From Herpomyces periplanetae (lineage: Eukaryota; Ascomycota; Laboulbeniomycetes; Herpomycetales; Herpomycetaceae): a DNA stretch of 64,000 bases. The translations under genes and the position numbers were made by a program. The stretch spans positions 119,951 through 183,950 of the forward strand of contig WMKJ01000011.1 in assembly GCA_009733715.1 (NCBI GenBank). The letters run 5' to 3'. The notes below the pieces were generated by a model. It had not been told where the DNA came from. It searched no databases and saw nothing but the letters and a program-made list of their open reading frames with translations. Positions 31,175 to 33,767 of this stretch are shown here, piece after piece (the first letter of the stretch is position 1; each line of letters opens with the position of its first letter).

Positions 31175-31180
31175 AAAAAA
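31175..31180 (-). terminator. RNA polymerase III terminator of the tRNA-Arg gene
   Basis: Six consecutive T on the minus strand lie 21 nt beyond the tRNA discriminator base. This is a normal position and length for a Pol III terminator. Together with the absence of T4 runs upstream within the split tRNA, it supports transcription across the whole 1.1 kb. Confidence 0.65.
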
Positions 31181-31996
31181 GTGCTTGGCAAAGCGAAGCG
31201 ACGACTCGAGTGGGACTCGAACCCACAGCCTTGGCCTCCCTCCGGGGTGGTAGAGAATCGACGGGAAATGACGGCGCGCCAGGGGGGGATAGAGCGCAGC
31301 CGGCAGAGATAGAGCCGGTGCGAGGGGTGAGTGGTACGCGGTGTGTGTGCTTGATGTGTGAGTAACGTGGAAGAGTTTACGACAGAGGGACGGACATAGA
31401 TTGCTACCGTCGGGTCATTTGACCCAGAGAAAGTCGAAGGGGACGGGGGATGGAACAAATTACATAAGAATCTTAGATGAAGGATGCGAGGCACCAGCAC
31501 GGAAACGTTGTCAAACTGTAGAGACAACTCCGGCACCAAACGATACCACCACACACACCTTCAGTCACCAAGTAACGGCACATCTGCCGAAATTTGGCTG
31601 AGCTCACGTGCTCTCAAGCTGGTGAGCACGCGTAGCCGGGGATTGCACTGAACGGTGTTGAGGAGGTGAAGATAGGGGGACGGGTAAGGTATTTGGGAGC
31701 CGGTGACGGAGAAATTGGGTAGAGTAGATAGCCAAAGTTGTGACTAGACTACTATGGTGGAGCCGGGTCGTGGTCCGGGCGTGGAGAGCCTAGAGGGAGA
31801 ACATATACACCACACACATAAACCCGTGCAGGCGAATTGCTCGAACAATGGAGGCAGGGCCGGCCACACGCAAGTTCCGGGTGCGTAGACGCTCACACCA
31901 CACCCGCCCACGCCACGCACATGCCCCCCCGCATATTCTACACCATATCCCCCAGATGTGGGCGGGATAAACTTGCCAAGTCACGGACTTGTGACC

Positions 31997-32020
31997 CCGG
32001 CGACATATCAATGTCGCCGG
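31997..32020. other. Perfect 10-bp hairpin inside the tRNA intron
   Basis: CCGGCGACAT and ATGTCGCCGG are exact reverse complements separated by ATCA, forming a GC-rich tetraloop hairpin when transcribed from either strand. It may help fold the long intron or belong to a nested RNA; both are speculation. Confidence 0.7.
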
Positions 32021-32230
32021 TCAGATACCCAACAGGCGCGGGGGGGATGGGAAAGCGATTAAAGAGAGCGCGGGGCGGGCAGCAAGCGGCGGGGCGATGG
32101 GTGATGTGTGTGCAACAGCATTTCACATATTATACGCCAGCATCCAGTCTCCGGGGGGGGAGTTGATGGTGCACGCACACAACACCCCACGATACACCTA
32201 CAAGCACACAGGCACACACATCCACGAGAA

Positions 32231-32267
32231 CGAAGGGGAGGAGGGGGGAGGGGGGAGGAGGAGGAAA
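32231..32267. repeat. G-rich tract with G-quadruplex potential
   Basis: The plus strand here is almost pure G and A with runs GGGG, GGGGGG and GGGGGG separated by single A or GA. It lies inside the tRNA intron near its 5' splice site, so the transcript would be C/T-rich. Confidence 0.6.
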
Positions 32268-32339
32268 GCGTAACGGGACATCTCTCGTGCGATATAACGT
32301 CGGTAGGAGGGCCACGCGCTACCATTGCGCCATCGAGCC

Positions 32340-33767
32340 AAGAACGGGGGTGAAAATTTAATTATATAATTAGTTTGTGTTTAACAATGGGTTAGGGTTA
32401 AGGATGACACGGGATAGTGTTGGGGGAAATAAGGTAAGCAGAAAGTATGGGTAATGTTAAGTATGACAGATTGGATGAGACGGGCGATACAAAAACTGGA
32501 CAAGACGATGGATGTGTAGGAAGGGATGATTAATGGTGCAAGCAAAGTAAAGCGTATCGTTGGACAAAATGGAATGTTTAAGGGGAAAAGTTAACAAAAT
32601 CGGATAAGGGTGGTGATATGAGGAGGTTGTAAGGTAAATAGGAAAACTGATGATAATAAATGATTGCAAAGTATAGACGTAGTCAATGATAATAGTTGAA
32701 GTAAAAATAAAAACCAAGACAGCAATAGCTCATACTTTGTGGAGGAAGCTTAGGGTCAGGGAAATAATGGGATAATTGATATCGAGTCCATGAGATGTTC
32801 GAACCATTATCATGAGCTAGTACATTAAATTAAGGCGATTTTTGAGAAGGATCTTCACTTTTAATGATAGTAACGAAAAATCAACAGGCAGTACAAAAAG
32901 GAATAAATAATGGAGTACGTACATACGGTGGTAAAATTGAAAATAACAGACAGATTTAACACAGGAAAGAAACTTGGGGTAAATTTCATAGAATGACAAC
33001 GATAAAACTCGAATATTTAGAATCCAAGAAGCGCTATTCCACACAATTTACACAACTATACAACAAAAATAGTAAATTAACCATGGACAGTTCCGATGAT
33101 ATGTGCGAAAGTGATAATCATTACCGAACAAGCCGAAGCGGCAAACGGGAAATCTAGAAGAATCGGGTACGGATGTGCATACGAGTTACGGGATGACCGC
33201 GCGACCTCATTTTCGTTTAAATGAAGCGGATGGATAATAAAAGGTTCGTTAAGCCATCAAGCATGCAAACTATCCGGTAACGATGCTGAAGTGAACGTTG
33301 CAGTGCACACAACACAACTCTACTAAACCCTCTATTGCATCTCGCTAAACTATTAATACTCTAGAATACTTCTTTTCACTTACCTGGCCCTGACCTGTCT
33401 AGCTATCCCATTAGGAAAAAAATTATTCTACCATAAAGTGCGCTACTCAGTTCCATGGTCTCGCCGTATCAACCATATCCCACATCCAATCCCTCGTTCT
33501 CCTCCCCATGCATCTTCACTTGACACCTTTTACACATCTCTGTACTATCTCCTCTTTACTTCACTCCTACACTAACATTTTCCCTTTCGGATAATGTATT
33601 CCACTGGTTTTTCTCAACGTGAATTTACCAACTAGGGTTAACTTTACCCAAGCACTTTTTGTGCAATAGTATTATTGTGTGCGTGCATAAAGCAAAAGGC
33701 TTTCCCCTAATCACTTTATACCCTATCCTTATACACTTAATTCATCCGGACGCACTTAATCTCAAGG
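32340..33767. other. Intergenic region between tRNA-Arg and the Y14 gene
   Basis: About 1.4 kb without a supportable gene. A short telomere-like sequence (GGGTTAGGGTTAAGG, about 32388-32402) lies some 50 nt upstream of the tRNA 5' end, and a related AGGGTTAA occurs near 33635. A T-arm-like TTCGAACC near 32797 lacks a pairing stem. The last 400 nt become C/T-rich ahead of the Y14 start. Confidence 0.4.

Follow-up and report, generated by a model that had tools for sequence, protein, structure and literature searches.

A tRNA-Arg(CCU) gene with an apparent 1,066-nt intron at position 37/38 in a Pezizomycotina-like ascomycete

Introduction

Two complementary halves of a tRNA lie 1,066 nt apart on the minus strand of the window (the whole 64,000-nt stretch of DNA analysed here), and the question is whether a nuclear tRNA gene can work across such a gap or whether the halves are the remains of a broken gene, two separate genes or a product of assembly. 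The initial annotation read them as a tRNA-Arg(CCU) gene split by an extreme intron. Eukaryotic tRNA introns are given as 6–133 nt in an excerpt of PMC10539383 and as 'less than 100 nt' in an excerpt of PMC4033280; archaeal tRNA introns reach up to 129 nt (excerpt of PMC3218864). No nuclear tRNA intron near 1 kb appeared in the literature titles and abstract openings among the matches listed, which lie mostly outside subscription papers.

The host is a Pezizomycotina-like ascomycete, with no close relative among the matches listed, because of the matches to two window proteins (searches scoring the 8,000 candidates that shared most words). The top match of MCM2 among the 120 best listed is 76% identical (Trypethelium), and many of the others belong to what we take to be Lecanoromycetes and Dothideomycetes; the 120 matches listed for the M28 peptidase are 43–48% identical, the named ones being Pezizomycotina.

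Results

Exons and body of the tRNA

The gene (32339-31202, minus strand) is of nuclear type, complete, and consists of two 36-nt exons and a 1,066-nt intron. The 5' exon (32304..32339, minus) holds positions 1–37 with the anticodon, the 3' exon (31202..31237, minus) positions 38–73; the intron (31238..32303, minus; GC 0.57) interrupts the tRNA at 37/38 and is reported by ARAGORN as i(38,1066). The stems comprise 7 bp (acceptor, one G-U), 4 bp (D), 5 bp (anticodon) and 5 bp (T), and the anticodon loop is C-U-C-C-U-A-A with anticodon CCU. The two halves on the minus strand (32339-32304 and 31237-31202), the pairing of their acceptor stem (7 bp, one G-U) and anticodon stem (5 bp), the spliced tRNA-Arg(CCU) body with A and B boxes, and the gap between positions 37 and 38 had all been described in the initial annotation and were borne out.

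A long-intron setting had been proposed there as a check. When introns of up to 3,000 nt were allowed, the window yielded a single ARAGORN call, Arg(cct) with the 1,066-nt intron; default ARAGORN and Rfam scans of the window reported no tRNA. As a chance control, the window was dinucleotide-shuffled 150 times in blocks of 2 kb; on these 9.6 Mb ARAGORN gave two tRNA matches, neither with an intron. Because no intron-bearing tRNA arose in 9.6 Mb of shuffled window, the split arrangement is not due to chance.

Gene set and copy number

The genome assembly is a 13.79-Mb draft of 220 contigs, in which a search with the Rfam tRNA model found 35 genes; it missed tRNA-Arg(CCU), nine other complete genes and one 5' half. 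From a B-box pattern search 40 stretches were fetched (36 of them covering unassigned GGTTCGANNCC matches), then 20, then 20 short ones. Seven candidates had a five-pair T stem, all seven called as tRNAs by ARAGORN; the remainder had at most four T-stem pairs, and ARAGORN gave no new tRNA beyond the seven in the 60 longer stretches, the 20 short ones being judged by the T stem alone. The survey took in all but one (C202:2709) of the 45 unassigned GGTTCAANYCC matches and left aside GGTTCAANRCC matches. A-box patterns added Pro(TGG), Trp and the 5' half of Leu(TAG): among 20 picked by eye from the 66 matches only Leu(TAG) resembled a tRNA half, known tRNAs were among the other 46, and C79 and C144, among 15 further matches of this survey, had no tRNA within ~340 nt.

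In all, 45 complete tRNA genes were recovered, window gene included, and 35 of them carry introns. Intron lengths are 9–94 nt in 32 of the 35; the others are 273 nt and 359 nt, both in Gly(TCC), and 1,066 nt in Arg(CCU). GC is 0.55–0.76 in the 14 introns of at least 40 nt, against 0.41 for the window. Four ARAGORN assignments were corrected by hand (L021, Thr(CGT); L030, Phe; L033, Asp; L037, Arg(TCG)); L037 (G000:C183:48195-48298, minus; 32-nt intron) had been called Glu(TTC), its anticodon loop giving TCG.

Five arginine tRNA genes were found, one each of ACG, TCG, CCG, TCT and CCT. When the spliced 72-mer was searched against the genome (E up to 10) it returned its own two halves at 100%, Lys(TTT) at 83% and nothing else, the 5' exon having no other full match. 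A second tRNA-Arg(CCU), which the initial annotation had suggested looking for, was thus not found in the assembly by tRNA-model search or spliced-sequence matching at the sensitivity used; the model search is incomplete, nine other complete genes having come only from the later patterns. The suggestion that this gene might be the only AGG-decoding tRNA holds in part: no other gene with anticodon CCU turned up, yet the genome also has Arg(UCU) (L013), which wobble pairing may allow to decode AGG. Among the arginine codons of ten window ORFs, AGG is the least used (26/480). In yeast the single tRNA-Arg(CCU) gene bears an intron and is dispensable.

Some further observations concern the gene set as a whole. 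tRNA genes are few, most isoacceptors being found once. No gene for elongator Met, Cys, Gln(TTG), Ser(TGA) or Pro(AGG) came up in the assembly with these patterns or the model; such genes may have other box letters or long introns, or lie in assembly gaps. Leu(TAG) (L124; G000:C163:1-300, minus) is a 5' half followed by ~240 nt of intron and the contig end, and a search for its 3' half by the acceptor complement gave three matches, none with a T stem. Two Gly(GCC) genes adjoin with zero spacer (L018; G000:C158:87252-87393, plus). The two Gly(TCC) genes with long introns, L055 (G000:C151, 3593-4022, plus; 359 nt) and L058 (G000:C176, 50-393, minus; 273 nt), have identical exons.

Splice geometry

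Anticodon-loop bases 32–35 (CUCC; 32306..32309, minus) can serve as the 5' strand of an anticodon-intron (A-I) helix whose 3' strand, intron bases −6 to −3 (GGAG; 31240..31243, minus), leaves a 3-nt bulge at the 3' splice site. The possible pairs are C32:G(−3), U33:A(−4), C34:G(−5) and C35:G(−6), four of four, which confirms the earlier remark that the last intron bases could pair with the anticodon loop. A 32:−3 pair (G-U allowed) is present in 34 of the 35 tRNA introns of the genome, counted on ARAGORN intron bounds with the four hand corrections; the sole exception is L019, to which ARAGORN gives a variable loop of 14 nt and in which, on our reading, C32:G(−3) would be regained if the 3' exon were shifted by nine bases. 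In a register test on 32 introns (those shorter than 14 nt dropped), the true register gave 31/32 first pairs and 84/128 pairs overall, eight shifted registers 5–18 and 46–66. Judged by complementarity, the A-I helix of tRNA-Arg(CCU) appears to fit the genome's own register.

The protein-free fold prefers a shifted A-I register reaching into position 38 and gives the canonical one near-zero probability. Forcing the canonical helix costs 4.4 kcal/mol in tRNA-Arg(CCU), 0–7.7 kcal/mol in eight other introns with four A-I pairs, and a median of 6.5 kcal/mol over 32 introns, among which the numbers of forced pairs differ (L019 and two introns shorter than 12 nt dropped). Since 4.4 lies within the 0–7.7 of the other four-pair introns, tRNA-Arg(CCU) is ordinary in this predicted cost.

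Set beside TSEN-type introns, the intron lies at 37/38; it has the base 32:intron −3 pair and 3-nt bulge as complementarity, the protein-free fold preferring another register; the mature body can form in the precursor, as predicted by the free minimum-energy fold; and two genes of the splicing endonuclease family PF01974 exceed the cut-off in the genome. Only its length, 1,066 nt, falls outside 6–133 nt, a range that is descriptive rather than a mechanistic requirement, because the free loop is said to allow varying lengths (excerpt of PMC10539383). By position and complementarity the intron is of the canonical endonuclease type; what distinguishes it from canonical tRNA introns is how long it is and how large a domain it is predicted to fold into.

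Promoter and terminator signals

The internal Pol III promoter is represented by an A box, TGGCGCAATGGTAG (32319..32332, minus; pattern match C10:152269-152282), and a B box, GGTTCGAGTCC (31213..31223, minus; pattern match C10:151163-151173), which lie ~1.1 kb apart. To our knowledge this exceeds the spacings tested for TFIIIC, and it is the main mechanistic puzzle of the locus. TATATAA (32362..32368, minus) stands at −29 to −23 from the mature 5' end. TATA, ATAT or TAAA starts at −38 to −24 in 34 of the 44 tRNA genes compared (Trp left out for its short flank); the same words start at −53 to −39 in 24/44, at −68 to −54 in 4 and at −15 to −1 in 2. The first Pol III terminator-like run downstream is a T6 run (31175..31180, minus); T runs of at least 5 occur within 60 nt downstream in 31 of the genome's 45 tRNA genes. 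A short telomere-like TAACCCTAACCC is seen ~20 bases upstream of the TATA element (window 32389-32400, minus).

A pattern search of the intron turned up neither TATA[AT]A nor a T5 run, nor any further A- or B-box match, and no T run in the intron exceeds three. TTTT occurs 0 times against 1.9 expected, and AAAA is likewise absent; because 11% of dinucleotide shuffles also lack TTTT, its absence is not significant by itself.

Predicted folding of intron and precursor

The intron has a predicted energy of −374 kcal/mol (z = −4.6 against 120 dinucleotide shuffles); 16 window segments of equal length, with 16 shuffles each, have a mean z of 0.19 (SD 1.5, range −1.7 to 4.1). A predicted long-range helix, 130-139/987-996 (10 bp, p = 0.97), joins the ends of the intron. 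All 21 cloverleaf pairs are present in the free minimum-energy fold of the 1,138-nt precursor, with pair probabilities of 0.86–1.0 (acceptor), 0.84–0.85 (D), 0.28–0.58 (anticodon) and 0.66 (T). When the entire intron was shuffled, the whole cloverleaf was kept in 0/60 and the anticodon stem in 0/60. Because the last bases of the intron pair with the anticodon loop and could explain part of this, the interior alone was also shuffled, with the first and last 15 nt kept; the whole cloverleaf then appeared in 0/80 and the anticodon stem in 0/80.

The long Gly(TCC) introns likewise fold below their shuffles (z = −4.8 for 359 nt, −2.5 for 273 nt), and eleven shorter introns of 40–94 nt range from z = 1.2 to −2.9. 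Anticodon-stem pairs retained in the free precursor folds number 0/5 for the 359-nt Gly intron and 5/5 for the 273-nt one; the D stem was not seen in either predicted fold. Insulation of the cloverleaf by the intron fold is accordingly no general rule in these models, because the 359-nt Gly fold lacks the anticodon stem and both lack the D stem. We read the window intron as long yet, in its predicted fold, compatible with tRNA folding, and infer selection for that compatibility.

Content and origin of the intron

In a sequence search of the genome the intron was found once, and its repeats are short and imperfect only, with inverted arms of 11–18 nt. A mobile element was rejected on this absence of a second copy and on the failure to find terminal repeats or element genes (6/19 ORFs). 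No Rfam family matched the tRNA-Arg(CCU) locus on either strand at E up to 5, and a group I/II intron or an embedded known RNA was rejected on that ground; so was a coding sequence or homing endonuclease, the six tested of the 19 intron ORFs all remaining below the Pfam cut-off (best E = 0.032). The phrase 'enlarged by an insertion' in the initial annotation gained no support from these searches of copies, repeats, Rfam and Pfam (6 ORFs). GC is 0.50–0.70 in every bin (up to 100 nt) of the intron, against roughly 0.4 in the surrounding kilobases. Sequence and length of tRNA introns seem to change fast in this genome while exons are held, because the two identical-exon Gly(TCC) genes have introns without detectable mutual similarity.

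Discussion

From its sequence, geometry, predicted folding and assembly copy number (at the sensitivity used), the locus is probably a functional nuclear gene for tRNA-Arg(CCU), present in one copy and interrupted by a canonical (37/38) intron of extreme length; it would be transcribed, spliced and used in translation. The reading as an extreme tRNA intron is supported by intact exons, promoter and terminator signals, a splice geometry shared with the other introns of the genome and a structured intron, and further by the finding of no other CCU gene and of two more long tRNA introns in the genome. Pol III would be placed by the upstream TATA together with TFIIIC on the A and B boxes, which are separated by ~1.1 kb, and would make a pre-tRNA of roughly 1.15 kb ending at the T6 run. 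The intron may then pack as a highly paired domain, the exons still being able to form the cloverleaf; the tRNA splicing endonuclease would recognise the tRNA body, the C32:G(−3) pair and the 3-nt bulge and remove the intron regardless of its length, and tRNA ligase would join the halves. Counted against a working gene are the box spacing, the shifted A-I register and the moderate anticodon-stem probabilities (0.28–0.58). Loss of tRNA-Arg(CCU) could moreover be tolerated, because AGG is rare (26/480) and Arg(UCU) exists; the same rarity may make a slow tRNA-Arg(CCU) gene tolerable.

How the intron became so long is a separate matter. Later enlargement of a functional short intron by a mobile element or genomic insertion, with splicing retained, is compatible with a working gene, since it concerns the origin of the length only and the two likelihoods overlap; we entertain it tentatively. 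The jump from 94 to 273, 359 and 1,066 nt in one genome needs some growth process, and the dissimilar introns of the identical Gly(TCC) genes speak for fast turnover. The searches found neither a second copy, nor repeats other than short imperfect ones, nor an Rfam match, nor a Pfam match (6/19 ORFs), and GC is raised along the entire intron (0.50–0.70); an old, decayed insertion would, however, look identical to the observed intron. Somewhat more speculative is the proposal that tRNA introns in this fungal lineage have been released from a length limit, structured introns from hundreds of bases up to 1 kb being tolerated in several genes because Pol III, TFIIIC with its boxes 1.1 kb apart, and the endonuclease still work, and that the excised 1-kb RNA persists as a new structured ncRNA.

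It is unlikely that the locus is instead the relic of a tRNA gene that was disrupted by a 1-kb insertion and has ceased to be expressed. Such a pseudogene would account for an intron length far outside the quoted 6–133 nt, and its loss would be tolerable with AGG rare and Arg(UCU) present. Yet every stem and box is intact, TATA and T6 are kept, and the interruption falls exactly at 37/38 with 4/4 A-I pairs; the predicted stability of the intron is far beyond chance, the cloverleaf survives in the free fold, and neither a repeat copy of the intron nor another CCU gene was found.

Separate transcription of the halves and joining in trans is most improbable here, even though a long apparent intron hid such a case in archaea (Aeropyrum tRNA-Asp; excerpt of PMC3218864). 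The 3' half has no promoter of its own before it and the 5' half no terminator after it: TATA precedes the 5' half and the T6 run follows the 3' half, the intron is free of TATA[AT]A, T5 runs and second A or B boxes, and its two TATAT words (at 8 and 497) are not close before the 3' half. The split gene was rejected on the lack of a promoter, terminator or box match inside the intron. An assembly chimera joining or padding two halves, conceivable in a draft of 220 contigs where Leu(TAG) breaks off at a contig end, is just as improbable, for the two halves pair in every stem and stand in the right order, the end of the intron matches the anticodon loop in the register shared across the genome, and a predicted 10-bp helix connects both intron ends.

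If the working tRNA-Arg(CCU) gene is spliced as proposed, the length of nuclear tRNA introns would be raised ~eightfold over the quoted 133 nt; TSEN would be indifferent to intron length, and Pol III promoters would work with 1.1 kb between A and B boxes, or the upstream TATA would compensate. Restricting a scan to short introns causes tRNA genes to be overlooked: this gene and ten others (one partial) escaped the Rfam-based search. As the two Gly(TCC) genes are identical in their exons but differ in their long introns, the growth of tRNA introns can be tested within one genome.

Comparison with known systems

Archaeal long introns and split genes (Aeropyrum tRNA-Asp; tRNA-Trp with C/D RNA) resemble the Arg(CCU) intron in having a length unusual for their clade. 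The apparent intron of Aeropyrum tRNA-Asp contains a promoter, and long archaeal introns hold such an internal promoter or a C/D RNA (excerpt of PMC3218864); neither was found in the Arg(CCU) intron. Group I introns of bacterial and plastid tRNA genes are, like it, large and mostly at 37/38 (excerpt of PMC4033280), whereas the Arg(CCU) locus has no Rfam match (E up to 5) and the splice geometry of endonuclease introns. The Gly(TCC) introns of the same genome (L055, L058) share with it the 37/38 position, C32:G(−3), folding stabler than shuffles and raised GC (0.61 and 0.64), but are about a third of its length or less (359 and 273 nt), have only 2 and 1 contiguous A-I pairs, and lack part of the cloverleaf in their predicted precursor folds. 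With canonical eukaryotic tRNA introns it has in common the position, the C32-intron pair, the 4-bp A-I helix, the 3-nt 3' bulge and the mature body; it differs from them in length, 1,066 nt against 6–133 nt, and in being itself a large, predicted folded domain.
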